From contig NC_049993.1 of NCBI RefSeq assembly GCF_000003815.2, positions 10,477,244-10,541,243 of the forward strand: DNA of 64,000 nt, given 5' to 3'. Made by a program: the position numbers and the translations under genes. A model generated the notes under the pieces. That model was not told the DNA's origin and made no database searches. It worked only from the letters and a program-made list of their open reading frames with translations. Shown piece by piece: positions 1,487 to 56,208 of this stretch (within the stretch, counting starts at the first letter, position 1; the number at the start of each line of letters is the position of its first letter). This stretch comes from Branchiostoma floridae. Taxonomy: Eukaryota; Chordata; Leptocardii; Amphioxiformes; Branchiostomatidae.

Positions 1487-1595
1487 CTTGTAAGGTGATT
1501 AGAGCTTCTTGTGAGGAGAACACTGAGCAGGTAGACACGTAACACTCACGTCTTGTAAATACCACCAACGCTGTCTTTAAGGAGCAAACAAAATC

Positions 1596-7319: not shown

Positions 7320-8942
7320 CTAGCACCGCTTGGACGTTGCCCAGCCCTCGAGGTCACCGACCTTGAAAGTCTGCAATAATCAAAGAAATATCAACATTGT
7401 TAATGTCATATTATACCATAAACTATGTGTGTAAGCGTATATGCTATTACAAAGCTATAGCCAATGATATTAATAATTGTAGGTCTGTCAAACATCATAG
7501 TATCTTTTTTTACTAGACCTGTCACCAAGCCAGGAGATTATAAGAATAATCACATACTTCTGTACGGTAAACAATGTTGCTTTTTATCAATACAATAACG
7601 TATTTCATACTGTATTGACTGAGCTTATTAATCCTTATTACCCTTACCACTTTTATGGTGTTGTCGTCAACAAAATGGCGACTGGTGTGGACAGAGAGCC
7701 CCTTCCCGTCATGGTTCGGGTACACAGACACCAGGTTGTCTCCTTCCATGGTGTAGGTCACCTGAAGGATATAAAAGAGTTGAAAGAATTTTCGGATGTA
7801 CTTTGACTTATTATTATCATTGTGCAACCAGCAGTTTCACACAACTATAGTTCCAACATCATATAGAAGAAACAACAACACAAGTGAAAATGTTGTCAAG
7901 CTAAATAACGCGTTCTGTGGATGTTCAGGAGCTCTAAAATCTACACTGTGTCTGTTCCTTACCTTTCGTTTCGTGCCCATCGGGTCCGATTCCTCGCCCT
8001 CCACACCCAAAGTGAAAGTGTTCTCGATAGTTTTCCCCATGGCCTCCACCTTAGACGTCATGACGTTCCCTGACAGGGAGGAATTGACGGGGAATTCCGC
8101 ATTCTTCAGTTGGTCCCACATTTCGGCTGGAACGCCTGCAAAATTGAAACACAAACGTCAATATAAGCTTATAAGCATTCAACCCATTCTGAATGTTAGT
8201 GGGCAGTCTGAATCTACACCCCTAAAACATTTGAAAGTCAGTTATCATGGTTATCAGAAACTTTAAGATATATAGACCAATTTAGATACGAGCTCATTTG
8301 GTGGTCGAATGATGCAGTTCTTTGTAACACAAACCCTCACACAACACCCTAACACAAAGCTTAAGGTACTTTCCACAATACAAGTGTGCTTTACCGCAAA
8401 TCCGTTACTTCACCCCCAAGGGAGTGAAGTATCGTTTTTGTCTTGTCAGTCTGTCTGTCTGTCTGTCTGTCTGTCTGAGATTTGACTATGTGTCTGAGTG
8501 TTTCCTCTGATTGTCTCCCATAGCAGTATGTTTAAAGGGAATGGAGTCTGATTTCTGATGGCATTGTTAGAGAAGGCAACCTGAACAACCAAACATGGCG
8601 GTTTAGTGGGGTCAAGGGGCGTGTCGCACTTTACCTCGGTTGCTGCTCTGGCTTCGAATACAGTGTGTGGCCAGTTTTCTAATCAATTGCAATATTTTTG
8701 TGTATAACAAATCGTAGTGATCGATACATCTTCCCCTTTGTACTCTAGTCTACAGTGCTGCTGTCGCCTCTTGTAACTCGAGCTGTTTCCTTAGTACCAA
8801 CTTGACTTAACGGACCACAAAATCAGTACGTCTAAAAGAACGGTAAAAGATACGCACCAAGCTTCACCATGATGTCCTTGTAGTTGTCTGAATTTTCCCC
8901 ATGCTTCCATGTTCCTGACGATTTGTTCACGTCGAAAGGCAT
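7320..8942 (-). CDS. FABP-like lipid-binding protein, copy 3 (complete)
   Basis: Complete gene of 140 aa. Exons: 8942-8858, 8135-7963, 7761-7648, 7370-7320. Junctions: CTT G|GTGCGT, AAG|GTAAGG, GTG|GTAAGG; acceptors TTGCAG, TTCAG, TTGCAG; phases 1, 0, 0. Starts MPFDVNKSSGTWKHG. Exon 2 begins GVPAEMWDQLKNAEF and ends with GVEGEESDPMGTKRK. Exon 3 reads VTYTMEGDNLVSVYPNHDG. Exon 4 is TFKVGDLEGWATSKRC-stop. The short tail K-V-GDLEGW is shared with copy 2, and the protein ends in Cys, as in copy 4. As in the other copies, the C-terminal Arg-x-Tyr of FABP4-type proteins is missing. The upstream side carries a tandem nuclear-receptor half-site at 9111-9122. Ligand unknown. Confidence 0.92.
8449..8477. 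repeat. (CTGT)n microsatellite
   Basis: About seven uninterrupted CTGT units in intron 1 of FABP copy 3. Just upstream (8408-8430) is a small inverted repeat of ACTTCAC type. Confidence 0.9.
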
Positions 8943-10328: not shown

Positions 10329-12754
10329 CTAACACCGGATGTGCTCCACCCACCCCTCCAGATCACCTGCTTTCATATCCTGGAGTAAAAAAATAGACAT
10401 TAATCATCGCTAAAACTGTCTATACATGTGTACTATAAAGCCGAACTGATTGCAGGTATTCCTTAAAGTAACAGTCAGACAAAATGCAAACTGCGAGAAT
10501 ACTGAGTACTGTCTCAAGAACAGCAACTGTGTAAACAATTAGTTTTAAGTTGATCATCGCAATGTGGTATTACTTTAGCTAGTCCATTCCTAGTATAACA
10601 TTCCAGATGTGCCTCTCTGTGCTTCAAGTTACTTAATCCTGCTTTAATAAAGATACTTACGATGCGTATTTTGTTGTCGTCGATAAAGTGCCGTCTCTGT
10701 GCCACAACAAGCCCGTTTCCGTCAAAGTTAGGGTACGTGGCCACCAGACAGTCCCCCTCCATGGTCCAGATAGACTGGGGTTGGGAGACAACGAGGGAGA
10801 CACCGAGAAGAACTTAAATATCGGAGGGAGTCCTACATAGGTCTTACGTCCATCTTGGCACACATAATGTACCCCTTCTCTGTATCTTTGTATCTCTCTG
10901 TCTTTCTCCCCCTCTCTCTCTCTCAAACACACACGTGCGCGTGCACCCCCCCCACACACACACACGGACAGACACACGCACAGACACACACACAAACACA
11001 CACAAACACACATACACACACACACACACACAACGTTCATCTGCCCATTGTGATTTCACATAGAGGTTGTCCTTTGTTGTAGCATACATCTTTCTATCTC
11101 CTAAGCTTACCGGAGTCTTCTTCCCTGTGATCCCTTCCTCCACGCCCTCCACCCCCAGTGTGTTAGTGTTCACAAGTGTTTTCCCGAGAAAGTCCACCTT
11201 GACCGTCAACTCCTTCCCGGAGAGCGAGACGTCCATCGACATTTCGTTTTCCTGGAACTTCTGAATTGCCTCAGCAGGGACACCTGTAAAGTGACGACAC
11301 GTTGTAAGCAAATGTAGCTTTAATAGAGCATGAAGGAATTTCAACTTGTACGTTGTGCATCGTCGTTTCCGATTCCTTTGCCATTTTAATAACTGCTCTT
11401 GCTTCGTAACCCTTCCTTCTGGAAGTGTCGTTTCCGGTCTGTTGATGAAGAGGAAAAAACGTTCAGTATGTCCGATGCGACACAACTGATGGGTAAGAAG
11501 TATTCATATAATCCTTTAATCCCTTTAGTGCTTCTTTTTGCCTTTCACAACGTTCATGAAAATAAAACATGATAGTACATTATTCTGAGTTTCCTAGTCT
11601 CAATTGGAAAAGGGCATGTGTGTGCTTAAACCCGTTGATATGTGGTAATGACGTTTCCGTAATTATGTTAAGGTCATGGTGCACTAACTCGGAACTGGCA
11701 AGAAAATACTGTGTCAGTGTCAATCATCCCTGAAAGATGAAGTGTTCGGAGCCATTTTGTTGTAGTGCAAATCAGCATGTTTGTGTGCAATCTATCGCAA
11801 TGATTTTTCATTCCATGAGCAGCACAATGTACTCCACGATATGTTTGTGGGGAGGGGGGCGCCGGAAACATATGATAGCTTGGGTAAAGAAAATCACAAT
11901 TCTAGTAGTAATACTCCACCTGTTCAAATGTTACTTACGATAAGACTCCAATTACCTGTGTAAACTGGTTTGACATATAACTAATTGTTGAACTACTGAC
12001 ATGGGCAAACAGGGCTATCAGATGACCACAAAAAGTCGAGGGAATTTGCATAAGGTCTTGTTTAAAAGGTCTTTAGTATTTTCGACCTTTTGTTCGTCTG
12101 AAACGAGTATCCCCGAGTCTATAGAAGCAATCTCTGACCTCGTTCCAAATAAAGCACTTTTCCATAATGTTAAACCTAAAATCGTTGAAGAACTTTTCAT
12201 GACATTTGGAAGGACTTTTCGTGTGTTAACATATCCTGTTGTGAAGAAATATCATTCAAGGTTAGTGCCCAACGCTTTGCAAAGTTTATACCTTAGGGTC
12301 ATGGCTTATTATTGTGTGCATGTACTGTCAATTCTATTGCAAAAACTACGGAAAAACCTTAACAACTTGAATCCCCACCCCACCCCATAGAAAAGTGGTA
12401 CAATCATTTGCCCAACTAGAGCTGTCATGCGTCGTTTACCTTTACCCTATATATTCCCAATGGATGTCTGAAGGCCTGTCATCGGGTAACTTGATGCCAA
12501 GGCTCCAGCTAACCAGCACCGGTATACGTTGTAATGTGGACTCCGTTTAACTTGACTGCACAATCAGAATAAAGATTATCATCTGTGCTATTACGAGCCC
12601 ATCAATGGGAGATTCAAAGCTAGTCTTGTGTTTTGAACAAATATGCATATTACTGTCAAAGTAACTTACCAAGTTTCTCCATGATTTGCTGATAGTTGTC
12701 CGAACGTCCACAGTGTTTCCACTTTCCGTTCCATTTTGCTACGTCAAATGGCAT
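10329..12754 (-). CDS. FABP-like lipid-binding protein, copy 4 (complete)
   Basis: Complete gene of 140 aa. Exons: 12754-12670, 11283-11111, 10774-10661, 10379-10329. Junctions: CTT G|GTAAGT, CCG|GTAAGC, ATC|GTAAGT; acceptors TTACAG, CCCCAG, CTCCAG; phases 1, 0, 0. Starts MPFDVAKWNGKWKHC (G-x-W signature kept as GKW). Exon 2 begins GVPAEAIQKFQENEM and contains SLSGKELTVKVDFLGKT; exon 3 starts SIWTMEGDCLVATYPNFDG; exon 4 reads DMKAGDLEGWVEHIRC-stop. It is the most divergent copy (Ser instead of Val at the start of exon 3, KTP instead of KRK at the end of exon 2). Intron 2 carries a CA microsatellite and intron 1 is the longest of the cluster at 1.4 kb. It is the last member of the cluster on this side. 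Confidence 0.92.
10925..11033. repeat. Imperfect (CA)n microsatellite
   Basis: CA-rich tract with a short poly-C interruption, inside intron 2 of FABP copy 4. Reading frames through it give only His-Thr runs and are not genes. Confidence 0.9.
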
Positions 12755-14787: not shown

Positions 14788-16815
14788 AGTTGTAACAGGA
14801 TTGGGTATGGTGTTTCAGAATCCAGTAAAAATAATGGGGCGGTTAAAGTTTTGAACATTATATTAACACTTCTCTTTGTAGTTCGCACGTGTTTCCAAAA
14901 TGATTTTTTTCAGAACTAAAAAACGGGATAAACAACCAGTCATCATTCAATGTCAGCGGATAAAGAGCGGGTGGAAAGTTCTCAATCCTCTCAACCCCTC
15001 TAGTTATTCGGAGTCTTTGATATAAACCACATCCTGATAAATGTGCTGTTTCCGGGCACAATACAGTGATAACATAATTTCAAAGGTTATTGCTCTACAT
15101 AATTGTAGTAAACCTGTATCAACTATCTACGTGACACGTGCCCAAAAGGCGGGTGAACATGTGAGAACCCGGCCCGACTGTTCTCAGTGATAACTTAGTG
15201 TGATGGGATCCCGCCCCCCGAGGGGACCGCCGGGCGTGATCCCGATGGAACCCATCGCCCTTTTCTCCACAAAGCTCTAAGCTCACGTACTTCGTCAAAG
15301 TCAAGGAATGATCTTAGCACACGAACTTGACACTTGAGTTGTATGGAGATAAGAAAGTACCGCTGGCGATACAAATGGTTGTTCGCACAAAACATTTATG
15401 CAACGATTTATTTTTACTCCGAATGGAATTACTCCAAATGGCTACAGATAAGGATACATTTCCGTTTGTCGCATCTTGGCTACTTTCTAGACACATCTAT
15501 GTGAACAGGCAACATAACTAGCTATGACTAGCCTTTCATGATTTTGTACGTAGGCCGTGCTCTGATAAGGCAGTACTAAAATGATGAGTCCCTAGCAGCT
15601 ACTATCAGAATGTATAAATGTGTTCCCTAATGTTATTTTATTCGCTTTGAAGCCAATAACCTCAAGTAATAAATCTTTGAATTCCTAGAAGATTTCTTCG
15701 TTATTATACGTTACTTCAGCTGTTTGTTAGTAGACAGGATTACTCAAGATGTGGGTTTTAATACAATTTTGTAGAACATAAGTCTTAGCTTTAACTTAAT
15801 ATTATGCATTATGAGTGATTCGCTTCAATTTGGCAGACGTGTACTCTTAATCTAAATTGCTCTCTTATTTTTAGTTTCCATGAACAATATTTAGTTTCCA
15901 GACACCGTTATTTTACGAACTTCAGTCCTGTCACGCTCTCTCTTAATCTCCTTAGATGTAGTGAGGTGTAGAAAACATGCGCGCGCACACATACGGTTGT
16001 TCAAAACTCACTTGCCATTCCCTTCAGCAATCTTTCTGCCTAGCAGCTGATCTTGCTGATTTAGAAATATTTTGTACGTAGTATGGCGTACCACACGGGG
16101 CGCCACACCCGTCACACAGACGTGGAGAGGAATATTCATCCTCACGCATGCGTCGTGTTAACCGCAAGTACGGGATTTCAGTTCACGTTGGCTGTAGGAG
16201 AAGGAGTCGGCCGTCTGTATCATGACACTCTATTGAGAGGAGTCCGGGCATGACAGAACAGGCGAGCAGACGACCTTATCTCGTCCTCTACTTTACGGGG
16301 AGCCCGAGAAGATCACTCACGGCTTGTGCGATATGCTGATTACAACTGTCATCCTTGGTCTCCGCTGTTCTTCATGAATACAGAGAGCCCGTTAAGTTGG
16401 GTCTTTGCAAGCTTCGCATCGGGTGGTCCGTACATCATGAGGCAGGGAATTACCAGATTGTGTGATCAACAATATCAAGCAGTAGAATGTTTTAACCTAA
16501 TCTAGACTAATCGGGGCTGCTTGACAGCTTGTTCACGAGTTTCCTAGCTGTAGTCTTGTGTACGGACGACTCTCATGAAGAGAGTCGCGCGCCCCGGAAT
16601 TCTCAGCTGTAGTTTGCATAGAGCATTTATGCGGTCAATATGAAGTGTGAATAGAAGCTGCCCGCCGTAATTACAGTGTGGAAGCCCACTGCATCATCAT
16701 TGATGGAGACCGTGTTCTAGCAGACACCACCTACGGACAAAGAAACGCGATCCACCGGCGTGTCTTCTCGGCTGGACTGAGAACGTCGCTTGGCTCCAGC
16801 GTAGAAAAATCGGAG
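14788..16815. other. Gene-free stretch and presumed 5' region of the GluN3-like gene
   Basis: No coding exon recognised. The reading frame of the receptor's first exon stays open upstream to 16678 but has no in-frame ATG before 16816, so this part is taken as 5' UTR. The last 700 bp are richer in CpG. A short hairpin with arms GACTCTC/GAGAGTC lies near 16567-16588. No TATA box was identified. Confidence 0.4.
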
Positions 16816-19800
16816 ATGGCGTTCTGTACTGGCTTTGTCTTTGCTACCATTTTGTCCTGCACTTTAACGAACGTTGAATGCTGCACTGCAGAAAACATTT
16901 CTGACGCGGCCAGGTTTCGAATAGGTCTCTTGTCTTCCAATGACTCTTACAAGATCAGTCTTCGGAAAGTTCTGGAGAGGAGTAAAGTTGGCGGGAACAG
17001 TGTGTTTTCGGGTCTCAGTGTTGAAACGGTTAGTCTTAGCACGGGTTTGGACACCCTGACGACCATGACTACCATGTATGAACATGTACTGTCTATGATA
17101 ATGACAACGGGGTGGACTCCAGAGTTACAACGACAAGCTGCAATAGCGTCTTCCGTCGGTATTCCGTCCATGCACCTTAACATAGAGCCCTGTGGAGATT
17201 CCTATTCAGAGGTAAGCGTATTAGATGATGGTAAAAGGGTTTTCTTGTCTAAACTTTACTATACTAAACTAGACTATAGCATGTATACTTAAGATTCATA
17301 TCCTGTTCAGTATTATAATATAGATCGTAGTCTTCTAGTTTGCATCGTTAACCAGTTACACCATTCATTTCAATGGCCTTTTGGAAAGACAATAACCAAG
17401 GCGTGTTTCTGGGTGGAGTGTGTTATTCAGGGATGGATGGTATGTGATATTCAGGATACGATCATGCCAATCAAGTAGCTGTAGATCGAGATTACATTCA
17501 CAAGTTTCCTTGATCCCCCAACTTGCATATTACGCTTCTTTTTCTTTCTTCTGCCTGCTGCCGCACCAAGAGATCTACCTGCATAGTAACCATCTCCAAA
17601 TGGGTGATAATAACGGCTGAGATAAGGCACCGTACCGAGAAACGCAATCCTTGGATTTGCATAAACGTTAACGTTGTTTTTGTGTCCTTGGAACATCGTT
17701 CCTGCTCTCTTCCTTTCACTTAACTCTTCCACAGAGTCGCAACAGCTCAGATAAACTCTAGATCGATGTCGCTTTGCATCATGATTTAATATAGCCCGGT
17801 TCTTAGACGGTTGTCTTATATCATAATATGTAGCACTTCTTACGTGTCTTGTGTTACCTACAAGGAAATCGGATTTGCCAGCACCCATTTCATTACGTAA
17901 ATTACGTTACGTGTAGCTTTCAAGAAAAGTTTTCCATTACCTTTCCACGATTCCATGTGACGACTGTCCTCAATTGATTAATCAGATCATGTCGTTTACC
18001 TTAATACAGCATTAGTTACTGGCTAGAATGTCTAATGCCTTGTCTTAATTTAAGATATTTGTTGCCTATCTTAAGCAACCGGAAGATATACACAACCGTA
18101 TCGATATTTAATAAGATGTACGTATTTGCTGAAGATATATAAGAATTTTCTCAAATAAGTTTTCTTGTCTCGGAATTCCCCACGAATTGCTTTCTGAATG
18201 GCAATGACGTCATGATTGGGAGTGACCTCCTTGACCTCAGTGGGAGTGAAGGTCACAGGACGAGTTCAATATGAGATAAGTGGCGGGGCTCTGAGAAACA
18301 GGATTGGACGTATGATTCCTCCCATGCCCTGACCCATGGCGCGGTTGACCATGTAGCTGACCCTTGACAAAATCCCATTTCTATACACATTACCCTTTTC
18401 AATCGCGCGGAAATTACGGCGTAAGTAGTCATTCATCAGAAAGGAACTACTACGAAATGTGAAAACGCTATCCCGAATATTTTCCCTCAAATCTATCTTA
18501 TATATGTTGATATTGTTAACGGTGGACACTTGAACAGTTGAACTTACCATGATATTGTTTTAGTCGGTTTCTTATAATATCCTTTCTATTATTATTATTG
18601 TTTATTTGTAAAAGAAAACAGAAACAAATTAGTAGCAGCACGGAAAAATAACATCCTGGGGAGACCAGAATTAGAAACCTATAAGTTTCTTCCTCGACAT
18701 ACGCAGATGAGATAAGATAAAAGAAAAGGAACATCATAATATCATATTTAGATACACGAGAAGATAAGGAAATTTGTTGGACTACTACTTAAAGAAATAA
18801 TGCTATCAAAATGAATATCAAATTTAGGGGTAGTTCAAGAAAACCAAATGATTTTATTTGTTTGTATTGCCTACTTTCCAACATTGGACATCCATTTTAC
18901 CCACAGAACGTCTGCAGCAGAAGCTAGAACCTCATTTTCATCTGAGTGAAGTGAGGAACTTGTTTTTAAGTGCCTTTCCCAAAGGCGGAGCATGTCAGGG
19001 GATCCTAACCAGCATCCTATATGTAACATCGATGCCACCATCACCCAAAACTTTCCTCAACACTATGTTCCTCTTATTTCCTCTTACTATTCCTCCCGCC
19101 TTGTCTAACTTTACTTCATGGTCCTCAGCACTTTGTCTTGTTTTCCAGCTAAAGGCAAGATACCCCATTTCTTTTTCCATAAAGGACACGACCACGTCTA
19201 TCGTCTGTAGCTATTTTATGTTACTGTCGAGTTTCTTTGTGTTATCTTTGGATGTGACACAGATAATGTCTCAGCCACCATTCTTCTCTCTACTCCTCTC
19301 GAACTGAGCGAAGTTATGGTTCTTATGGCTAAAATACAATCCGTCTTCCAACCGCAGTAGCCATATAACAGTGGCTGAGAGAGCAGTAACCCATTCCACA
19401 GCCGCCTATCATTCAAACCTTGTTCAGAAACTGCCTTTCCTGCCAGAGATTTTATACGGTTATGGCTGTTTTAACAGCTTAACTCCATGTGTCAACACCC
19501 ATAAGGCATGTTGATTTGATTATATGAAGGACATCCTCTAAATGGACACAAGAACTGATGCGAGCGTTCAAATAAAAAATATTCACCAAAACGGAGGTTG
19601 AACATATGACTGAAAACACAGAATACAATATACCAATTCAAAAGCAGTTGATTCTTCAGTTTTGTTCTTTCACATTTTCTTTAACCTTGGAATATTCTAG
19701 TATTCGTTTTCCAGCATTTGTGTTTGCAACCTACGACATATATTTGCTTATTTTGATCGTTTTCCAGTATTTGTGTTTGCAATCCACGATATATATTTGC

Positions 19801-25800: not shown

Positions 25801-28800
25801 AATGTGTTTCACATAAAGGATGCCCCAGCTCATGCTGAGCAGAAGCAGGCTGTAATTGCCGTCTGCAAAAAGTAGTCTCCCTGCAAATCCGTCCCATTTT
25901 CGGATCAATTAGGCTCCACCAACGAAGATAGGTGATAATCCATAGCATTGCTGTCAGAACTAAGGCAGCATTAAAAACAAATTACCCATTATAGTTCAGG
26001 CATCATGTATAGTTTATCGTACACAAGTCGTGGGCTCCCTTTTGACTAGACGGCGATCGCGCTGCGCTCTCACTGCGATCTAAAACTGAGGTGTGTAACC
26101 TTCGATTCCATACTGGGTATATCATACAAAATGTAAAAGTGTGATAAAGAGACGCACAAAGTGTTAAAAGATTCGTAAAATTCTGTACAAATCTGTCAAA
26201 TTAAGTCACAGAGAGAGCTCGGCGAGAGCGCCCTCTAGTGGAAAGTTAACAAATATGTACGAATTTGTTTTGCTGTTTTTTTTTATTTGATGTATTTGTA
26301 CATGTTGATAGTAATTTACAAAATATATACATGCTTTTTTTTTATATTGATGGTATCCTCTTATCATTCTTCACTTCATATTTTATTACATCCGAGCAGA
26401 AGTGCTCCCCAGCAATGTAAAACTGAAACGGACTAGGCACTGGTTTTTCAACATCATCTCAGTACAGTCACTGTGTAGCTGTAGCGTTTTAAAACCTGAC
26501 GTTCAGCACCAAGGACGTCACCAATACCGCACCAAGACTCTTCCTTTGGGTTGGCCCTATAGCAGAGTAAAGAAATCTTACTGTTGCCGATGATCCATAA
26601 ACATGAGAGCTTTGCTGCACAAACTTACTTTCGTCTCTATCACTCTCTCTCTCTCATTCTTTTCTATCTAGTCTAGTGAGGGGATGGGGGCTGAGTTGTC
26701 CCGAATCCCTGTGTAGACCCCCCCCCCCTCACTCCGCACACACAAACACTGCAGACAAACTTCAAGTCTCATTGCATATGTGGCCTGCTGTATTTTGATA
26801 AAGTTGTTCAGGTAATCCTCGTATCACGCAGCTCAAAATTACTTTTCGATTGCTGTTTGGTCTTCGATGTTTGCTCATCCTGGCCGCCCAGAACTGGAAA
26901 GTGCCTTATTTCCAGAGAACCTTAGCGTGACAGGCATATTAGACTGACTACTGTATAGTGAACTCTCGAACGCACATCAGACATTAAAACAAAACTTCAG
27001 AATTATTAAAATTAGGTCCCTGTCACACTAGATGACGATATCGCTGCGAATTAATTGGATTTGTTTAACCCATGACCTCATATCTGAAATATTAGTAAAA
27101 GCGCAAAATGTAAAAGTATGAAGAAAAAAACACTAAAAGCGTAAAAAGGTAGTTTTTTCTTATCTATGGACATTCTTGGCGATCAGTAACGTCTACACCC
27201 TGGTGGAATGTGGTTCTTCGGGTTCTGGCGAAAAGATTTTCGGTTGTTATGGTTTTAAAACTCTCCAAGCAGAGGTTTGGCTCCGGCTGTTTTCAACAGT
27301 ATTAGCCGTTGGTGTCGGGCTTTCTATTTTGTACCGTTTTTTTTCATGTTTCACGGCCAAGAAAGCCCCATAAAAACGGCTAAAACCACAACATAAAATA
27401 GCCGGAGGCAATTGCAAACCTCTGCTTGGAGAATAGCTATTAACCCTAGACTAAGTACTTTTTGCTATAATTTCGGTGGATTTCGAAGGAAATTAAGAAA
27501 ATAGGAGAATAATTTTTAGCAACAAGAACGTTCTGTAGGCTATTAGCTATGATGGTTCACAGTAGCTGTCATTCTGAATCCAGTTTCTAGGAAGACGGTC
27601 GAAAAGAGGTTTGAAAGATCGAAACAAGGTTGAAGCCCCTAACGGTGCTGCTGATTGACACGGCTTGTGCAGATAATCTATTTCCTGTCGTGATTAGTTC
27701 CGGAAGGGTCAGCCGCGCTGTCCGTCTAAGGATTGATCAAACATCATTTCCGACAACCTGATGAAATCACGCTGCCCACAGACGCATGGGGTACACCTCA
27801 CTGCTAAACCTTTCAAGAGTTATAAACCATGTTAGGTGGTATCTCACTGCACTTGGGGCACCGGAGTTCGTTCACTGCGGCACTGTTGTGCTTTTGTCGC
27901 CGATTTTTTATAGCTCAATTATTGCGTAATACCGTAAGTAACATACTGTTAGAAGACAACAAAATACACAGACAAAACGTATGAAACTTTATTTCTGAAA
28001 CTCTTTGAGTAATCTTTTGAACCCCATAGATGTCATCTTTAGATATGAGGCTGGGTATGGCAACAGGAATTTCAGATCGCATTTGGAATAACTATGAGCT
28101 AAATGTTACATTCATCAGTTAACAGCACCGTTGTATGATTATTTCAAAGATTACAATAAGAGAAGACAAAAAGAAACCACCAGAACAATTACATAACTCT
28201 CAGTCCAAAACTTGCAGAATCGCGCTACAAATACACATCGGAATCAACCTGTCTTATAGGGTCTTCGCACTGAAACCGAATTAGCAGGAATCAAGCAGAA
28301 CCAGACAGAATGAAGAATTTGCAAAATTCGTGCCACATTCGGAGTCATTCGAGTGGGCATTCAAAATGGACATTATATCCCCTTCACAGGAGAAGGAATG
28401 AGCCAGAATGCCGTCAGAATAAAATTATTTTCTATTCCTGTGCATTCGTAGTGTATTCTAGAAATTCTCATTGCATTCCAGATATTCTTTTTCACCATGC
28501 ATGCATATGTGCGATTCTTCTATCGTTTGAGCTCGCCATGTATCAAATTGATCACGAAGTGCAACTCTGCTCTAAGCACTGTTATTACTGGCCAGGATGG
28601 GATGGATTATAGGTCGCGTGACCAGAAATGATATATACTTAAGCCAGATCAAAGTGTCTAAGAACAACCGGCTGCCTTGAAGTCGGCTTCCACGGCGTAA
28701 AGTTACAAGTGGTGGGATAAAAGGGAAAAAACAGAGAAATATCATTATTGTAAACAGGACGCGTAGTTAGCGATAGCCAGCCATAGCAGAACTGGCTGGA

Positions 28801-31800
28801 ATAGTATTTTGTGTCTGCAAAGTTTTGAAGTAAACTATGGGATCATATGGGCTAATTATACGTATAAAATTAAAGTAAAAAGTGAAGTAATAGAATATAT
28901 ATGCTATTACTTCTAATCGACTATAAAATGCTACATTTAGTAATGTGAGCTTTGTCTTCTTCTTTTAAAGTAGTGACATTGTATGCCGAATATTCAGCCT
29001 ATTCCGAGAAGTATGTGCGGTTGTGCATGATTCATGGCCAAAGGTTGCAATGCAGCAAATTGGACGTGAAGTACGACAATCAAATTCTGCCTGAAGCGCC
29101 CCTAATACGGTGTGGGTGGAATTGATGGCCGTTCTCTTGACCAGGGAGGGTAGGATCAGTCGGATCAGAGTTTCCTGGAAAAAAGGCTTACGTTAACAAT
29201 CATCTCTAGTCTCTACTTGTGGAGCATTCATTATTCAGTAGAGAAAATGCACAAATGTAAACCAGATAGTCGTTATGTGGTTTGAGTATCACACAGTCAG
29301 GCTGATCTTTAGAACATGCTAAAATAGTAACATGTATGCGTTTTGATCAATGAACGCCATGAAAAGAAATCCTGCAAATAATGTACTTTGATCCTTCCAC
29401 GAGTTGGCATCATGCAGAGATTACCGAAAGTGCTTCGCGATCGATGCCTGGAAGCAAGGTGTTATTTCAGAAATAACCAAACCATACGCGCTCTGTTATT
29501 AATGAATAACTTACTAGTTTTCGTGTGATATGTCTCATGTATTGAAAGAACGTCATTGGCAGTAAATTGTCCCACAAAATTATGAATGTCGTGCTTTTAA
29601 TAAAGATGTTTTTTATAGGTTCGAAGCAATTTCGACATACAGAGTTTTTAACGTTTTCTTGCAGGCTTTAACATGTTTCTTTGTCCTTAAGGGTATTGTC
29701 AGTGTGAGAGTACCAAGACAGTTTCGCAAAAGTTTAGCTCTCTTAATAGAAGAGAGCTAAACTTTTCTCCAACAGCTTACGACGTTCCACACTCAAGTTC
29801 CCCACAGGCAAGTGACGTGGCCAAAGCTATTATGTATGCTAATTATAATGAGCTTCCCCCGAAGAAGTCATGTACAGCAGTATTGGAGGGAAAGATTAGA
29901 CAGTCTACAACAAGAATGTGTATCAGATCACGACTCGTTTGCGAGGGATCCAACAGACCACCTTAAACAGGGACAGGGGGCGCCACTATCTCAGACCTCT
30001 TTATGACTGTGTCTTGTCACGTGACAATGTCTAACCAACCGTCACGTGACAACGAAACTCCAAGATGAGATCTACCGGGTTGATAAAGGGACAGAGTGCG
30101 TCTCGAAAGTTTCCCAAGCTATGAACTTTAGTTGTGAACAAATGTGGCATAAATTTCTGTCAAAAGTAGAACAACAACGTTATTTTTCCACTTTCCAGGT
30201 GCCTCCCAGTCTGACCCTACAGATGAGATGGCCAGCCGTCCGCCAGGCTAACGTCATCTACCAGATCCTAGAGGACAACTACTGGTGCAAGCTCAACCTG
30301 GTCACGTGCTACCCCTCCCCTGGGAACAAGTTCTTGAGAACGTTGATTGGTCTGATGAGAAAGGGCGACCTGCCAATCAACTCTCTCATCAAGGTGGACT
30401 CGCCGTGGGGGGAGAGTGTTGGGAGGAGACTGGCAGAGCTGGACGGGAACTCAGACCCACATGTTGTAGTTCTGGACTGTGGACCGTCAGATGGTCAGCA
30501 CATACTGCTCGTGGCGAGTCAGCTGGGGTTAACGCGGTCCCAGTTCGTGTGGATCGCCACCGAGGCCTTTCTGACCAAGGACACGCTGAGTCAGGACACT
30601 ACGCAACTTCCGGTGGGGCTTGTCGGGATACGCAGCGCAGAGTTCAACCCGGTAGACAGGATCCATGATGCTCTGCTCCTGACGACGAAAGCGCTGTTGA
30701 ACATGCAGGAAGATGGGTACGATATCGGGCAGACAGAGGGGGACTGCTGGAGCGAGGATCTCACCCCATGGATACAACAGGGACAGACTCTGTATAGGTG
30801 AAGCCTTGATTTCCGTGTAAAAAGTTCATATCAAGTCAGTGCTACTTTTGCTACTCTTGTATAGCTGCCTAAAACTATTCACGTAGTTGACGTTGTAGTC
30901 GAGTAGTCAGTAGTTTCAAGGTACGAGGTAAAGAGCGCTATAGTTGATAAGTGGTTTTGGTCGATCGTGAAGGGAGGGAAACTGATGAAAGGTCTTATAG
31001 AAGAGGACCACATTCGATCGGTTTCCTTGCGAGATTGTCGTTATATCAAAGCGTTTCTGACCACGGTTTTGATTGAAGTTCAAATTCTGTAGCACAATCG
31101 ATGCTGGCAGGCTAAATGTATTGACCTTTAAGCGTAATTGAAGTTACAAGGAAATGCGAAAGCAACGCGAAAGATTTTTTGTCAAACAAACTATATGTTT
31201 AACTTCTTAATCATCTGTATAAACTATAAGCTGTCACGGTTGTGTATCTCCAGGTATATGATCAACACTACAGTACGTGGCAAGACGGGCAGAATATCGT
31301 TTGACAAGTACGGTCGCCTAGCAACGTCCACGTACGACATCTGGACCGTGCGGCTGACGTCCAGTGAAGAGAGAAAATGGGTTCATGTAGGTTCGTGCCT
31401 GGGCAATAGTGGGGTCATACTCCTGGGGTCAAACCTGGTTAAAGGTGGACTTCTACTGCACTTGCGGCACTGATGCGGCACTGCGGGGTTCGTAGATGAC
31501 TCAACAAATTTTCTTCCGTTTTGTGTATTTTGTTGTTTTCTAAGTCATACTTTTACGTATTACTCAATATCGGAATTATCAAAAATCGCGAAAATAACAA
31601 AACAGTGCCGCAGTGAACGAACCCCGCAGTGCCACACCGGTGCCCCAAGTGCAGTGAGAGTCCACCTTTACTGTACCACCCATTTGGGTTAATTTATCCT
31701 TTTTTGTCATTTATAAAGAAGAATATGAATGTATAAATACTTTTACTTGATACCAATTGTTCTTTGATTTATATTATGAGACCTTAATAACATCTTGCAT

Positions 31801-34800
31801 TTTAGTTCTTGTTCCTTTTCATGACGTTATGGGTAAGAATTTTTTTGAAGGAAGTATATGATATCAAATATGATTCAATATGATTGCTTTGAAAAGTGAT
31901 GTTTTCGAATTTCGTTCCAAAGTTCTGGTGAAACAGAGGCAACGTGAAAAATCAAAGGGTTAGGTATGCAACAAAATGTATCCAGCACAAATGACATTGT
32001 TATATCCACATCTAAACACAGGTACTTCACTTGATGACAAGCTGAGGTGGAACTCTCCATTGTGGGTGCGAAACACGAACGCTTCACTGACAGTCCTGAG
32101 AGTCGTGACGTTAGAAGAACACCCGTTCATCTTTACACGGAAACTGGACGAAAATGACCAGTGTCCGGCCGGGACGATGTGCACGGTACCGAAGAACAGA
32201 GACGAACATAACGTAACCCTGGATCCAGCCTCCATAGAGGTGGAGAAGAAATGCTGTTACGGCTTGTGCCATGATCTCCTGCACAAACTGAGTCAAGACC
32301 TGAACTTTCAGTACGAGCTGTACGTGGTCAGGGACGGGAAATACGGAGGGATGAAGGACAATCTTTGGAACGGCATGGTGGGTGACCTGTTGTACGGCCG
32401 GGCAGACATGGCGGTCGCCTCCTTCACAATAACGAAGAAACGCAGCGAAGTCATTGACTTCTCAGCGCCCTACTTCTACACCAACCTCGGCATTCTCATC
32501 TACAAGAAGGAGGCTCCAACGCCTCTGGCATCGTTCATGAAGCCGCTGGATTGGTCCATGTGGGTGGGGATCTTTGTAACCCTGCACCTTGCCGCCATAT
32601 TTGCCACCATTTACGAGTGGTGCAGTCCGTACGGGTTGACGCCCAAGGCGAGGAACAGGCCCAGGATTTTCGGCTTCCCCTCGGCACTGAACCTCTGCTG
32701 GTCCATCCTCTTCAGCCACACGGTCGCCACGAAGACTCCCAAGTGCTGGAGCAGCAGGTACACACACCATCTATTACTTGTTGAAGGGGTTTCTGACGTA
32801 GATTATGGTACATTGTGCTCCCCTTCTATATGGCTATAACTTTTAAAAGTTCTAATAAATAGATAAAAATGAGGAGATCATTCTATTCTTTGTGATAGTA
32901 ATATCAACGACAATGATAATAGTTATCTTAAACATTAAACGTTAGCTTTTCAGTCCATCATGCAATTTGTAAGTTTCTAATTAAGTCTTTTAAGTCTAGT
33001 CTGATATTGTATGTTGTGATAGTGATAATGTTACCACGGATGATATGATTATCTAATACTAACCAGAATATAGAACGTATGATGATAAAAGAACATTCTA
33101 TTTATAAAGAGATAAATGTTTCAGAAACAAAGCATTCCAAATTGCTAAAATTATTTGGCGGATGAGGTTTTATAATCTTATCGATGTTTGTACCAGGTTT
33201 CTGATAAATCTATGGGCAGCCTTCTCCGTCATCTTCCTGGCCAGCTACACCGCCAACCTGGCGGCCTTCATGGTGGATGAGAAAACCATCAACGAACTGA
33301 ATGGGATAGATGACCCCAAGGCGAGTATCCAGTCTGGATATAGTTATCTTTCAGGATTTAGAGTGTGCAATTTTCTTGCTGCAATGCAACGTTTTTCCGC
33401 AGGGAGGTGTTTCAGCATAGTCTGTCGTTTCGAAAACAGAGAGTGGAAGAAACGCATGTCTTTGTGTAATTTACTGTCTGTTTAAAGTTCAATTGTCATC
33501 CAATTCCAAGTGTACTACACACGCTGATATTGTAAACCAAAGGTTTGCCCTTTGTCAGGACAACTAACCCATACGTGCCAAAATCCGTGTGATAATTAAG
33601 CCAGCTTTAAACATGAAACATGTACTGTACCAATACAAATGGGTTTTGATTGTACTATTCCCTGTAGTTGATACGGCCGTCCAAGGGTTTCCGGTTCGGG
33701 ACGGTCCGCCACAGCAGTCCTGAGGCCTTCATGCGGGAGTTCTACCCGGCCATAGAGATGCACATGCGCAAGGACGGCAGCAGTAACACTGGCGAGGCGG
33801 TCGACAAACTAAAGTAGGAAAACTGTCATTGTGTTAAAATAGGTTAAGTTACTATCGACTGAGTCATTGTTTGCAGACGTAGGTATGAAGGTTTGTGTCT
33901 TGGGAATTAATGCAATTCTATATAGTCTGCTATACAATTCTATATAGTCTGCCATACAATTCTATATAATCTGCCAAATGAACAATAAACAATAAACAAG
34001 CACTGACTGTTCTACCAAAACATCGGCATCATTTCATCACAATACTGATACAATCCCATATGTTTGTGATTTTGCATATTACGCGACACTAGTATTGGCT
34101 GAAATGTGATAGGAAGCCTGTAACGCCCCCTGTCCCTGTTAAGTGAAAAACAACACAGAAAAACTTTGTTTCTAGCAGTCTCTTCTTGAAATGTCTCCCC
34201 TCCAGAGCAGGCCATCTAGACGCCTTCATCATGGACCAGGCTATTCTGGAGTACGAGGCGCTGATCGACCCGGAGTGTAACCTCAAGGTGGTGGGCAAGC
34301 CGTTCTCGCGAGACGTGTACGGGATCGGGCTGCCCAAGAACTCCTCCCTGACGTCAGAGGTCACGAGGTTAATCCACCACTACACCAGCACGGGCTACCT
34401 GGACCGGCTGTACAGGCAGTGGTACAACAGCGTCCCCTGCAGCGTAGGGAACGAGGGCATGGAGCAAGTAGGGAACCTTACTGTAGCAAATTCATGCACT
34501 GCATAAAGTTTTGTCTAATAGATAGATACAATATTCAGTAAAAAAACGGAAACTATGGTGTGCATATGATACTTGTATCGTGATCGTATCTAAATTACGA
34601 ACAATAACAAGACAGTTGTAATATTTGATATTGTCCTGTTCGACCGAGCTTTTATATATGCGTATGTACTGGTGGATAGGTATAGGGAACTATTGTGGCC
34701 ATTTACGACTATACAAACCCCCCATCTCTGTACAGTATATGCTGTTAAGAAACAACCATCTTTGTCTACGTGACACCTTTTATCTGTTGTGCCCGTCCTT

Positions 34801-37800: not shown

Positions 37801-38791
37801 TATACAAATGTGTATTCAAGTCCGTATGGGGTGCTGGTGAAATTCTAAGCCTCCAACAGGCTCCACAGGTCGCTAGAAAAATAGTAGAAATTGGACATGT
37901 ACAATATAGACACATAACATGCCAGAGACGTTAGCTATCCGAGGAATATGTATTTGTATGTATTTGTCCAATTTTTTTTTTTCCAGCGTCCCGTGGAGCC
38001 TGGTAGAGGCTATTACTTTATGCGGACCACATACGGACTTGAATAGACACACACACGTGTGAACCCACCTTTAGAAATGTAGTTAAAATGTCGACAGTAT
38101 TGGGGACAATGCGTTGCTACTGTTGTCTCTGAGATTTCTTTAAAATCTTGGTATGTTAACATCTCGCAGTTGTATCAAAATTGACATGCAGTACGAAGTA
38201 CAAACCTTCTTCCTATTTCCTTTGCACATTTGCAAGTGATGATTTGGTGGTGAAAAATAACTTACCATACTCATCTTGCCCAGGCCACCATCTTCTTTCC
38301 GAGATAGCCGTGCAGAAGAGGAATTCTATGACTTTTATAAGATTCTCAGCGACACTTCCAAGACGCCACTCAATAACGTCAATTTTCAGAAACTCAGTAC
38401 CATCGTCACCAAAATAAACAGCGCCAAACAGTCGAACATTGCCATCCAAACCGATGACGTAGAAGACATTGTAAACCATCAACTCAGAGACATAGACGCC
38501 AACATACAACTGCGCCTGCGCGTCTTCGAACGTGATCTGCACGACATGCGTGAGCGTCTTGCGCAGGCGCTGAGAGAAAAGGAGGAGTTACTGCGCAGAC
38601 TCGCCGTCCTGGAGAACCCCACCGCGCGTGCGCAGATGGAGACGCCTCTAGTGAACGGCTCGCCGGTCGTGATCCGGTGTATCTGCGGCTGCGCGGAGTG
38701 TAACGTGTGCAACAGAAAAATCACGACGTTCGAAAATGACCAGAATTTGTTCAATCAGAACCCTAAAGAACAAACGGCATGCGACGAGTGA
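16816..38791 (+). CDS. GRIN3-like: GluN3-like NMDA-type ionotropic glutamate receptor subunit
   Basis: Ten exons: 16816-17211, 30199-30797, 31254-31390, 32022-32757, 33197-33320, 33668-33813, 34206-34467, 37020-37181, 37665-37765, 38284-38791. They encode 1056 aa, and all phases join. Order: signal peptide ([13 protein letters not shown]...), N-terminal domain to about 377, ligand-binding S1 about 404-545, M1 555-577, pore loop 594-618, M3 625-647 with SYTANLAAF (639-647), S2 650-797, M4 about 809-833, coiled coil about 953-998. Amino-acid-binding residues sit where expected: Thr513 and Arg518 in S1, Ser680/Ser681, and Asp723 in [28 protein letters not shown] and LDAFIMD are GluN3-class; GluN1/GluN2 differ. 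The coiled coil resembles the vertebrate GluN3 tail. Vertebrate GluN3 subunits bind glycine and assemble with GluN1. Oddities: Ser609 at the N-site, a GC donor after exon 5 and a Cys-rich tail (1020-1030). The ATG chosen starts a signal peptide. Confidence 0.93.
17451..18550 (-). other. Possible decayed coding sequence, unidentified
   Basis: Minus-strand frame 18550-18071 stays open for 160 codons except for one in-frame TGA at 18268-18266. A second open stretch of 145 codons follows at 17888-17451, with a lysine-rich segment (GRRKKKKR) near its end. I recognise no domain or catalytic motif in either. A broken transposon gene is possible; chance open frames are equally possible. Confidence 0.2.
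19706..19810. repeat. 53-bp direct tandem duplication
   Basis: Two adjacent units starting GTTTTCCAG, each containing TTTGTGTTTGCAA and ATATATTTGCT, differing at a few positions. Intronic. Confidence 0.8.
23346..23510. mobile_element. Foldback element bounded by 16-bp direct repeats
   Basis: Inverted arms of about 36 bp (23364-23399 and 23421-23456) that begin or end with AAAGTTTAAAC and meet at AATAGAGA. The 16-bp direct repeat GGTAATACTGATTTGT is present at 23346-23361 and 23495-23510. The right repeat is 38 bp away from the arm, so it may not be a simple target-site duplication. Confidence 0.5.
26502..26522 (+). promoter_or_regulatory. Degenerate RE1/NRSE-like motif in GluN3-like intron 1
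   Basis: Left half TTCAGCACC is perfect, then two bases, then GGAC; the expected AG after GGAC is replaced by GT, and the 3' end is CACC. It shares 15 identical bases (TTCAGCACCAAGGAC) with the core-perfect element at 40262-40282. Alone it is weak. Confidence 0.35.
27260..27434. mobile_element. MITE family A, complete copy
   Basis: About 175 bp with terminal inverted repeats of roughly 20 bp (CTCCAAGCAGAGGTTTG at the left, CAAACCTCTGCTTGGAG at the right) and subterminal inverted GCTCCGGCTGTTTT/AAAATAGCCGGAGGC. No transposase. The 66-codon plus-strand frame across its left half is not a gene. Confidence 0.8.
27833..28027. mobile_element. MITE family B, copy 1 (3'-truncated)
   Basis: Starts with the family terminus AGGTGGTATCTCACTGCAC, contains GGTTCGTTCACTGCGGCACTG-type sequence and the AGAAGACAACAAAATACAC core, and breaks off after GAACCCCATA. 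The right terminal repeat is missing. It lies in the receptor's intron 1. Confidence 0.8.
29728..29766. repeat. Perfect 17-bp hairpin
   Basis: AAAAGTTTAGCTCTCTT (29728-29744), loop AATAG, then the exact reverse complement (29750-29766). It is too short for a typical miRNA precursor. It lies 430 bp before exon 2 of the receptor and may be a minimal foldback transposon remnant. Confidence 0.85.
30016..30052. promoter_or_regulatory. Pair of identical palindromic CACGTG boxes
   Basis: GTCACGTGACAA occurs at 30016-30027 and again at 30041-30052, 25 bp apart, about 150 bp before exon 2. GTCACGTGAC is the ideal CLEAR/E-box motif of the TFEB/MITF/USF bHLH-zip factors. Function not established. Confidence 0.4.
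31440..31670. mobile_element. MITE family B, copy 2
   Basis: 231 bp in intron 3 of the GluN3-like gene. Termini TAAAGGTGGA and TCCACCTTTA are inverted. Inside are the inverted pair CTGCGGGGTTCG / CGAACCCCGCAG and a TTTGTTGTTTTCTAAG core also seen in copies 1, 3 and 4. Confidence 0.85.
33911..33977. repeat. Three-unit 22-bp tandem repeat
   Basis: Units of ACAATTCTATATAGTCTGC type repeated three times in intron 6 of the GluN3-like gene, followed by AACAATAAAC repeated twice. Confidence 0.85.
36573..36648. repeat. Three-unit about 26-bp tandem repeat
   Basis: Units GAATGTTATAGAGCAGTGTT and variants, each ending TTTATTT, in intron 7 of the GluN3-like gene. AT-rich and non-coding. Confidence 0.75.
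36842..36891 (+). other. Candidate 50-nt cassette exon of the GluN3-like gene
   Basis: Preceded by a pyrimidine-rich stretch and TATTGCAG, and followed by ACG|GTAAGT, so both splice sites are good. Exon 7 (ending phase 0) joins exon 8 (starting phase 0) perfectly without it, and that join gives the same spacing between the VPC motif and M4 as vertebrate GluN3. Inclusion of 50 nt would shift the frame and reach a stop inside exon 8, before a usable M4. It could be a poison exon, or a chance pair of splice-like sites. Confidence 0.3.
37849..38010. mobile_element. MITE family C
   Basis: 162 bp in intron 9 of the GluN3-like gene, with 26-bp inverted ends (37849-37874 starting GCCTCCAACAGGCTCCAC; 37985-38010 ending GTGGAGCCTGGTAGAGGC; about four mismatches). 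The right arm creates a splice-acceptor lookalike (poly-T then CCAG), which is not used in the gene model. Confidence 0.75.
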
Positions 38792-38811: not shown

Positions 38812-38817
38812 AATAAA
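38812..38817 (+). terminator. PolyA signal of the GluN3-like gene
   Basis: AATAAA begins 21 nt after the stop codon (38789-38791). This would give a very short 3' UTR for a neuronal receptor transcript. Further signals downstream may be used as alternatives. Confidence 0.6.
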
Positions 38818-40261
38818 CACCGTAAATTCCACGACTCTTCCCGATATGGGTGTACATGGATTCAATCGAGGGGACAGCCGGGGTGCCTCAGCTAGCCTTG
38901 CGACATTTCTGTCAGTGTCACATTCTGTGTCACCTTTTGAATGGGAACAACGCAGCGCGGATACGGATGGTGGATAATATTCGTCACAACCAGGAAAGCC
39001 TTACTGTTCACATGGGATTATCATCAACGATAAGGAACTGTCGTTCTGGGATTTCTCGCTAGATGACGCACATGTCCGTGTAAGATGACCGCCGCGTTGA
39101 ACTTCAACTACAAATACTCTTGAGATACGAATGAGTGGACAGTTGAACACATAGGTATTGTTCAGCAGCCTATATGCCTGGCTACTCGCTCCCCCTAGCG
39201 GTATCTAACGCCTTTGCAGTGCCGTGGTAAGTTGAAGACTTGTGCTCAAGTTTGTCAACCTTCATTGATTCTCTATCTGGAGATACAGGTAGGTTCCTGT
39301 TACTTGTCAATAATGTACATATGTATCACAGAGATTTAAGAAGACTGTAAATTTCTTGTATAGACGTAAACAAGACTGCTAACTTCTCGACTTCAAGACG
39401 ATCGCCAAAGTTGTCTTTAGCTACAAGCACAACATACACAGTGGAAATGATAACTAGCTGATGCTAACTGTTTAAACCACTGATAAGGTAATTAGTTACC
39501 GATGAAGTAGTAGTTAGCCTTAATGCTTTGAAGGTTACACAAATTGTTCTACCAAAACTTGAAGAAATCTACTCTTGGACACAACTAGACAATTTATGAA
39601 TGGGACACTAGATAGTGAAATCAGCTCTTTTATTTCGGGCTTCAATGTCGACCATTTAAAAGGGCGAATATATCTTACCCTTAAGTTCACGTTCTGTATT
39701 ACCAAAGAAGGGTCGAGCTCTACCCTGTGTAATAAGAAATGTGTCATGATATATTCTATGCCTATATCAACTCCAACATCTTTAAATCCAGAGACTGTTG
39801 GAAACTATGATAGAAAAGAAATACGTGTATCTAATGCTAACAACGTGGCAGTAGGGGATAGTCTGATACCTGCTCTGTCGAGTATCATGCAATATTCTTG
39901 TAGACAATAATCAAATAAAAAGTATTTGATATGGATAGATTTTGGAAAATGTTCCTGACAAAATCTGATTTATCTCGCTCCACAATACATATCAATACGC
40001 CGGTCTACCGTAGATATGTACATGAGTATTTTAAGAGTGTACATGTATATGTACAGAAACGTATAAACTTATAGAAAGGCATGGTATGGTGCACCATGTT
40101 TTATTTGCTTCCAGATGACCCTGAGGAAAACTACATTGTATATAATGTAGACCTTCTATGCGTATTCTACATTAGACATCACCAAAGGAAAGACAGTTTT
40201 GTAGTCTGTTTAGTCTTCTTTTCTGAGCTAGAGAGAGGGTGTGCTGAAGACGTCATGTCCG

Positions 40262-40282
40262 GCACCTGTCCTTGGTGCTGAA
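40262..40282 (-). promoter_or_regulatory. RE1/NRSE (REST/NRSF-type) silencer element
   Basis: On the minus strand the element reads TTCAGCACC, AA, GGACAG, GTGC. All 15 specified bases of both RE1 half-sites (TTCAGCACC and GGACAG) match, with the canonical two-base spacer; only the less constrained 3' tail differs. It is 1.45 kb past the polyA signal of the GluN3-like gene and 13.8 kb before the second receptor gene. In vertebrates REST binds such sites in many neuronal genes, including the NMDA receptor gene GRIN1. Whether this organism has a REST-like factor is not known from the window. Confidence 0.65.
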
Positions 40283-53290: not shown

Positions 53291-54033
53291 CCTGGAGACT
53301 CCATGGGGATTGGATTTTATACACCGAGACGATCCATCCTAACCCAAAGTAGACTGTGCGGTTGTGTCTGCGCAAGCCCGAACCTCTGGACTCGGGTAGA
53401 ACGATCGAGCAGGTGCCTCCTTCAGTGCCGATCACGTGAACAAGACGCCTTCGTGCTCAGAAATCGTTTGTGGTCAGTCAGCTGACCAGGAGGAGAGGGA
53501 GAAGACCAGTTGTGACGTCATGAGGGGCGAGCTGTGTGGACGGATATCCCATCACCTGGACCGTGGACAGGTGGGCAGCAGCGGGGATGTTGTAAAGCGG
53601 CGCTAGGCGAAGTGTGACCCGGTTTTCTTGTTGAGCACCTGCGCGGGGAAGGTACGTGCGGAGCCGTGTTCTTGACAAGCTGTACTTCCGCCGGCTGTGA
53701 CGTTTCAACTGGTGTTGGTGATGTGGCTATGTGGGGAATGATACCCGCCGCACGCCTGTGTGCTGGGAATAGGCGCGTGGATGCAGCCATGAGAAATGGA
53801 ATGTTGCCGAGAGGGAAGTCGCGCTCGGAGAGACGGCGTGACGTAAGATCCGAAAACAATCTCCCCTCCTCCGCCTCTCCCAAGAAGCCGTTTACCATGC
53901 GGAACGTTTCTCTGTAAGAAAATTAAAGAAACATCGATCCGGCAGCCGGCGACCACGGAGGATGCACGGAGAATGAAAGCGGAGACTATTGTTATTGGGA
54001 CCACGAGAACCCCTCGGTATTAGCGTTACAACC

Positions 54034-54450
54034 ATGTCTGCCTTACTGAAACACCTGTGTTGGTCGCGGTTTGTCGTGTGGCTGGCAACCTTGATGATGG
54101 CGATCAACAACATCTGTACCGTCGCGCAGGAGTCGAACGACAGCATGTTGACTCTCGGCGCGGTGTTTCCCCAAGAAAACGTCTCGGAGTTCCGGCGGAC
54201 CATGGAACGCGCCATCGCGGACTACAAAAACGACTACCCCAACATCAGTGTCAACCCCCTCACGGTAACTCCGGGAAATAACCCACAGGAGATGCTGAAC
54301 GAAACGTGCGAGTCTCTGGCCGGGACTAACATAGCTGCTCTGCTGGTGGTGGGGGAAGCCAGGACCTTCCAGATCCTGTCCCTGTACGGCGCACATCTGG
54401 GCATCCCTGTGGTGGGCATCAGCCTGAAATACCTTTCCTCGCCCCAAAAG
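54034..54450 (+). CDS. Second NMDA-type receptor, first coding exon only
   Basis: 139 codons from ATG (context ACAACCATGT) to the donor AAG|GTAAGA, phase 0. It has a hydrophobic signal segment (FVVWLATLMMAINNI, residues about 13-27), then an N-terminal-domain start: LTLGAVFPQENVSEFRRTME, a central IAALLVVGEARTFQILSLYG, and LGIPVVGISLKYLS just before the intron. Architecture, length (139 vs 132 codons), intron phase and the GIP motif near the exon end match exon 1 of the GluN3-like gene at 16816, so I take it as a tandem paralogue of the NMDA-receptor class. The subtype cannot be fixed from this exon. No further exons were found up to 64000, which is plausible because the paralogue's first intron is 13 kb. 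Confidence 0.7.
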
Positions 54451-56208
54451 GTAAGAGCCTTGCCTTCCTTTAACGTGCGTTAGGTAGGACCCACCTTGCC
54501 TATGTTGTTGTTGTACCTTCGTATGATATTTCCCAACAGTCATTTACCCACAGGGGTAGTTTATGGACAGATGAACAAGTTAGACCGCAATTAAGCCCAC
54601 AAGTAATGTAGCGTCACTTAATTGCTACATTAGAGAGTAATACCTGTACATGTGGCACAGTAGAGAATTAACACGGCGTTAGACAGTGCAAAACTTCGTA
54701 TACGTAAGATGTATATAAAAGACACCGGTCTTTAGTAGTTGGCATAATAAATCAGTAAACAACATTATGCATTTATTCTGCATGTTAGTAGAAGATGTCA
54801 CAAGATTTAGCGACGACATGGTTTCTGCATCTATGTGCATATTGCTTTCATTAGATCAAACACCTTCTGGGATTTTGATTAAAACCGGGTTAAAAGTGCA
54901 TCGCATCATCGGCATAAATTATCAGTGGAATGCGCAGAGAATGCATAATGACAAGTGACTGTTGCTAATTTCCCCGTTATGAGGTTGTCAATATAATGAA
55001 TGTACAACGAGAATTCTTCAAACATCTTTAGTCTTCAGCTTTAACAGACGTGTCGGCATTCAGCTAGCTTTGAAGATTGTGATACAGTCTTCTAAACGGG
55101 AAACATCATCGTAATGAAAAAGGATCGATACTGAAGGATCAGCCTAAAAGACGAATCAAAGGACGTTTTGTCGGCACTATTAAGCGAGTATTGGGGCAAT
55201 GTCTTTATGGTTTGTCTGTATGAGCACGTGTCATTTACAGCTGTGCGGACTTTCCGTGAGGTTTACGATCACATCGTGTAATATATCTAAAACAATACAC
55301 TGCGACATAAACACTTACAGTACGTGGTCGGATTGTTTACTTCGAGACTGCAAACGAAGGAACATTGTATCATTACCGATGTCATGTTGGGATACATGTA
55401 CGTGAAGTATCATATTTCCTGCTAACGCACAAAACTAACTGTTGATATTTTCTAGCCAGCGTAGGATCATGTCTTTTCCTTGCCTTAAGATGCAAACTCC
55501 ACATCATATATATATATATATGTATAAGTCCGATCCTGCTTTTCAATACGTTTAGTGCTATAGATAACAGACGGCTGGATGATAAAAGACCTTTAACATG
55601 CTTTCTTTGTGGCCTTTCGGACCTAATGTAACCATAAGACTCCTTACTTTACAACCGTCGTACTATCCGGGTCCTTTGAAGACATACTTATAACTGATAA
55701 AGATATATTATCTCACAAATGCATTGGTGATCCTGCAGATATGAAAAATATTAGACATGCTGCTACCAATATCTTTAGACACAGTATTTGTCGAAAACAG
55801 TCTTGACAGGAGTTTGTAGTACCCAAATTTACGCGACTTCTTTCCAGCTTAAGTCTGTCTGCTAGCTCTTCGAAATCTTCCGTGTAGCAATGACATGGTA
55901 AATACATTATGTTTTACTTTCTAATAAACTCATTTCCCTAGTATTACTAGTAATTAAACCTTATACCAGATGCGTTTCTCTCACATTCAACCACATGTAC
56001 TTTCACATATTTGTGTTGTTATGCGCGTATTCTCAAAAGCTTAAACAGAAGAATTGTTTTATTTCTCAATCTCGAAGACACATTTGATGTCTTTTAGCTA
56101 CATGTATATATATATCTCATTTTCGTTGACTTACGTTCTAGCTTTCCTTCCTTTTTGTTCCTATCCATTCAAATGTGATCCCGAGAAACCGGCAGCATGT
56201 TGCTTATG

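Follow-up and report, generated by a model that had tools for sequence, protein, structure and literature searches.

The window analyzed here, a 64-kb stretch of amphioxus DNA, contains on its plus strand several open frames that by their similarity belong to an NMDA receptor gene of the GluN3 type. The frame at 30025..30801 (+) covers an exon of the amino-terminal domain (Pfam ANF_receptor, 2.4e-11), the frame at 31964..32839 (+) an exon for ligand binding and pore, which matched NMDA 3A structures with an E-value of 8.7e-85 and Lig_chan-Glu_bd with 6.2e-31, and the frame at 33108..33485 (+) a further pore exon (Lig_chan, 1e-11). The frame at 38261..38791 (+), which gave no Pfam match, is probably the last exon of this gene, as judged by its position and reading frame. 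It ends with a TGA stop codon at 38789-38791, and an AATAAA sequence is found at 38812-38817. A frame at 16651-17292 resembles a first GluN3 exon by eye; Pfam and a further search gave no useful match for it. At 53977-54480 (+), a second ionotropic glutamate receptor gene appears to start, with a weak match to the amino-terminal domain of GluD1 (E 0.073). Two frames on the minus strand, 7522-8157 and 10514-11503, are similar to each other and look like exons of fatty-acid-binding proteins by eye; no match was obtained with Pfam for 7837-8157 and 10844-11503, or with PDB for 7522-7836. A scan of the window with Rfam at gathering thresholds gave no match.

Downstream of the GluN3 gene, at 40266..40282 (-), lies a perfect core of the RE1/NRSE element, TTCAGCACC-AA-GGACAG, without a mismatch at the 15 fixed bases and with a 2-bp gap. 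The full string on this strand is TTCAGCACCAAGGACAG, which confirms the preliminary description in that both half-sites are present in the canonical spacing. Its placement about 1.45 kb beyond the end of the GluN3 gene also holds, given the stop codon of the probable last exon. As the apparent second receptor gene begins about 13.7 kb past the site, the site may sit between two receptor genes. Including the 3' extension, the 21-mer spans 40262-40282 on the minus strand, but the extension itself, GTGC at 40262..40265 (-), does not match the CGCC that the vertebrate consensus has at this position. A second left half-site, TTCAGCAC, is located 34 bp downstream on the same strand at 40241..40248 (-) and has no right half; it is possibly the relic of a tandem unit, although this is a guess. 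A near-RE1 sequence, TTCAGCACCAAGGACGT, with 13 of the 15 fixed bases is found at 26502..26518 (+), 3.5 kb 5' of the first recognized GluN3 exon, and thus in an intron or upstream of the gene.

From the base composition, 5.6e-5 matches to the 15 fixed bases and 6.5e-4 matches to the 13-base core are expected on both strands of 64 kb; the figure of 0.002 that had been given before is the value for equal base frequencies. The site is indeed far above what composition would yield by chance, as had been claimed, but such a model of chance is wrong for this genome, as will be seen below. Scoring with an approximate RE1 matrix gave 26.7 for the site, the top score of the window, and 23.2 for the near-RE1 sequence, whereas the best score in 100 first-order Markov simulations of the window did not exceed 18.5. 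A matrix scan against randomized sequence had been suggested, and its outcome is in agreement with the site assignment.

In the whole genome (513,431,437 bases), the exact core TTCAGCACCNNGGACAG occurs 7,427 times (3,462 + 3,965 copies), whereas the reversed pattern, which was the sole control for the shared 15-base cores in these counts, was found once, with about 0.45 copies expected by base composition. When up to one mismatch was permitted, 16,728 copies (7,961 + 8,767) were obtained, as compared with 22 for the reversed pattern. The 9,301 one-mismatch copies are distributed over 45 possible variants, which corresponds to about 207 copies per variant versus 7,427 exact copies, so that the distribution peaks sharply at the sequence of the vertebrate consensus. 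The mean density is 0.93 exact sites per 64 kb, so a lone site in the window is ordinary, and the argument from rarity for a link to GluN3 falls.

The preliminary description had named an abundance of equally good sites elsewhere in the genome as evidence against it, and this is what we observed, with site-bearing loci numbering about 4.9 per Mb over the first 8.7 Mb of contig C1. The particular connection with the NMDA receptor gene that it had proposed is therefore not supported. The genes recognized within 5 kb of sampled sites do not help this connection either, as they encode a rhodopsin-type GPCR, a P450, a WD40 protein, a C2-domain protein, SMG8/9, and DRC7, and thus appear mixed and not plainly neuronal. 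This sample consisted of eight hand-picked long frames from seven of twenty 10-kb loci, which gave six genes at six loci and one frame without a match. In locus L040, a long frame at 1-1902 (-), about 3 kb from an exact site, resembles a LINE-type retrotransposon by eye. The density of site-bearing loci makes the position beside GluN3 compatible with chance; however, the motif is thousands of times more frequent than base composition predicts, and we therefore regard it as highly improbable that the site is just a chance occurrence near a neuronal gene. A chance origin of the motif itself is refuted by the genome-wide copy number.

Among the spacings of the half-sites, the 2-bp gap predominates. 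The 7,427 matches with a gap of 2 bp compare with 500 (237 + 263) for all gaps of 3-30 bp pooled, for which the control gave 15. Among the 101 matches listed for gaps 3-30, 56 are in fact canonical cores that are followed by a further GGACAG. In a stricter test, the third gap base was not G, which drops all canonical cores together with other matches bearing this G. This left 70 matches (25 + 45; control 14) at gaps 3-30, 37 of which are clean and distinct and spread over 28 gaps. Set aside before this count were 17 matches that ran into a second core, 12 canonical cores with one mismatch, 10 of which have gap 8, and 4 identical array repeats. Human REST also accepts a gap of 8-9 bp (PMC9903721). 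In the stricter set, gap 8 is the commonest alternative with 5 of the 37 clean matches, and gap 9 is absent from them; with G as the third gap base, three further clean matches at gap 8 and one at gap 9 are present among the matches listed. Gap 8 also accounts for 14 of the 45 non-canonical matches among the 101 listed, mostly mutated canonical cores with a following GGACAG, and for 4 of the 21 clean non-canonical ones listed. Beside the 7,427 cores with a 2-bp gap, the 8-9-bp gap is rare. Of the 56 canonical strings listed, 12 continue into a doubled right half, GGACAGGGACAG; the list itself selects for a further GGACAG. In L052, L054, and L067-L069, the core is directly followed by this second right half, an arrangement that would permit the 2-bp and the 8-bp gap together.

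The canonical vertebrate NRSE is a 21-mer, TTCAGCACCACGGACAGCGCC, that ends with CGCC (PMC3529185). In amphioxus, this 3' CGCC is found on 9 of the 7,427 exact cores, with about 13 expected from base composition in a calculation by hand. It is thus at background level, and the site class is an RE1 variant. Isolated sites were defined as exact cores without another core (with up to 4 mismatches) within 500 bp, and 20 of them were obtained from L001, from L009-L048, and from a 10-kb part of the window. The first gap base is A in 16 of these 20 and the second in 13, and no flanking consensus is evident across the 20 sites, including the positions after GGACAG.

Exact copies are of two kinds, namely isolated sites that have only the core in common and tandem minisatellites whose spacers are largely unrelated. 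Of the first 100 sites on contig C1, 33 have no neighboring site within 2 kb, and the remaining 67 fall into 10 multi-site loci; by density or by share, and from this one contig end only, single-site loci extrapolate to about 1,900-2,450 in the genome. The loci L002-L008, which overlap L001, were omitted from the locus counts. Adjacent cores (up to 2 mismatches) that are 17-120 bp apart occur in 31 loci. Their start-to-start distance is at least 24 bp throughout and is most often 43 bp (63 pairs), a unit present in 10 of the 31 loci. The next class, 26-27 bp (29 pairs), was favored by sampling, as L050-L069 had been taken from a list rich in units of 26-28 bp. The spacers vary in length and sequence, and crude clustering resulted in 28 groups, a number that is an overestimate because short spacers could not be grouped, as seen with L055, L056, and L063, which are identical and yet remained separate. 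L010 also contains, at 13-738 near its RE1 array, other dense minisatellites with 22-bp and 60-bp units, and their consensus has no RE1 core.

Within the arrays, the core is better kept than the spacer. In five of five arrays aligned to their repeat consensus, the mean frequency of the major base in core and spacer columns was 0.982/0.901, 0.956/0.910, 0.973/0.878, 0.985/0.947, and 0.915/0.894, respectively, an estimate of core retention that is biased since the loci had been picked for exact cores. These five arrays come from the six array loci, of which L013 has no core-bearing array.

The arrays raise the question of whether all copies could go back to a single ancient repeat, either a dispersed minisatellite or a small mobile element, in which the 17-mer is present by accident, with the isolated copies as relics and a core that is read by no protein. 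The clustering of two thirds of the first C1 sites in multi-site loci and the recurrence of the 43-bp unit would fit such an origin, as would the spacers that L009 shares with L010 and L066, and L052 with L054, in addition to the identical ones mentioned above. Among the matches listed, L009 furthermore shows array-wide alignments with L012 and L001, and homology between array loci is restricted to the repeats. Amphioxus is also known for its mirage minisatellites (PMC3087553). When the cores were masked and 400 bp of flank per side were compared for 43 sites outside the six array loci, 29 pairs had some similarity, and two of them were nearly in register (offset 2 bp), both joining the multi-core loci L031 and L047. 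However, no two of the 20 isolated sites have similar flanks in this comparison, as they are alike in the core only, the spacers of the arrays differ widely in length and sequence, and agreement with all 15 fixed RE1 bases and with the 2-bp gap would have to be one more coincidence. Taking these aspects together, we consider a dispersed repeat without a reader unlikely, albeit deserving serious attention.

With regard to the protein that may read the core, the preliminary description had asked for a REST-like zinc-finger gene. Using the human REST fingers, we obtained 613 matching stretches with fingers 1-8, 147 of 3,717 first-look candidates being scored. The best of them, C15:4002029 (E 2.3e-41; L049), has a Pfam match to zf-C2H2_REST, but was rejected as REST because by eye it is a generic poly-finger protein with TGEKP linkers and helices that differ from those of REST. 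Fingers 2-4 and fingers 7-8 together with finger 9 gave no standout among the candidates scored (150 of 6,013 and 150 of 6,613, respectively). With scores for about 150 candidates per search out of several thousand, a divergent orthologue could have been missed. Clusters of poly-zinc-finger sequences that match REST fingers are present, among the matches listed, on contigs C158, C10, C16, C323, and C200.

Finger 9 of REST alone gave a single match, C4:20253627-20253704, with 50% identity and an E-value of 0.0015. The 4.8 kb around it (L070) contain clustered C2H2 fingers that are distributed over several frames (L070 1036-4108), and the final frame closes with a finger in which GDYVCIYCDRSF immediately precedes the stop codon, a layout that resembles REST. 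This C-terminal finger scored 67 against REST finger 9, whereas the other nine scored fingers of L070 reached at most 39 and nine fingers of L049 at most 26. The other L070 fingers are not in the order of REST, with a finger split between exons left unscored, and the gene is therefore only a lead. The prokaryotic NCBIfam library gave no match on the L070 exons. In summary, no clear REST orthologue with collinear fingers was present among the candidates scored in the finger searches, and the REST-like gene that had been sought is represented by this one lead.

It is in principle conceivable that a different, lineage-expanded zinc-finger protein has converged on the RE1 sequence. The many REST-like poly-finger stretches, including the zf-C2H2_REST match in L049, would provide candidates, and the lack of collinear REST fingers in our searches, together with the fact that L070 resembles REST chiefly in its C-terminal finger, is in line with this idea. 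However, the same 15 fixed bases with the same gap would be improbable without common descent, and we thus regard convergence as quite improbable.

The excess of cores with a 2-bp gap throughout the genome argues for a REST-type reader. We therefore favor, with some reservation, the view that the site belongs to a class of several thousand functional RE1-type sites, many of them amplified in tandem, which are read by a conserved REST-type zinc-finger protein. A multi-finger protein of this type would read TTCAGCACC-NN-GGACAG as vertebrate REST does and ignore the 3' CGCC; once bound, it would bring in co-repressors and silence the chromatin around the site. Many sites would have been copied in tandem together with a spacer, resulting in arrays in which the core is kept and the spacers diverge. 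What we infer is that the core is bound, which type of protein reads it, that repression follows, and that selection accounts for core retention; the arrays may act as repeated silencers. More tentatively, and as a possibility that we hold to be rather doubtful, amphioxus could have a REST-type system that predates the vertebrates and comprises several thousand perfect cores, many of them in native tandem silencer arrays that form genome-wide repressor platforms and retain the binding site while their spacers turn over. The suggestion that the site bears on the age of the RE1 network can thus be maintained with regard to the core excess in an invertebrate chordate, but not with regard to GluN3. 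Compared with the local claim, the abundance of the RE1 core and its arrays across the genome is the stronger and stranger observation.

RE1 and REST are usually treated as a neuronal silencing system of vertebrates, in which RE1 silences. Among the titles and beginnings of abstracts listed for open-licence papers, we found no report on RE1 in amphioxus. Thousands of perfect cores in a cephalochordate would date the recognition code to before the vertebrates, would suggest that the 3' extension and the common split-site mode were later additions, and would be an example from nature of a transcription-factor site that has been multiplied in the form of minisatellites. A review from 2023 mentions surveys of the motif in humans, mice, rats, and fugu, as well as a Drosophila gene that is REST-like (PMC10605157). 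The latter, Charlatan, is a zinc-finger repressor that is termed REST-like there (PMC10605157), and it can be likened to the putative amphioxus reader by this name alone, as a zinc-finger repressor outside vertebrates.

With the RE1/NRSE that is bound by REST/NRSF in vertebrates, the amphioxus sites share all 15 fixed bases, both half-sites, and the 2-bp gap, and also the preference for A as first gap base, which is A in the canonical site (PMC3529185). They differ in that they are without the 3' CGCC, rarely have the 8-9-bp gap, often form tandem arrays, and have a reader that is putative. In mammals, RE1 copies were spread by transposable elements. The amphioxus sites resemble this in that repeats raise the copy number of REST sites, but here the flanks of isolated sites are unrelated and the arrays are minisatellites with differing spacers. 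The mirage minisatellites of amphioxus (PMC3087553) are likewise tandem repeats with partly overlapping unit lengths; however, mirages duplicate exon-intron boundaries, whereas the arrays described here have in common a core to which a protein putatively binds.
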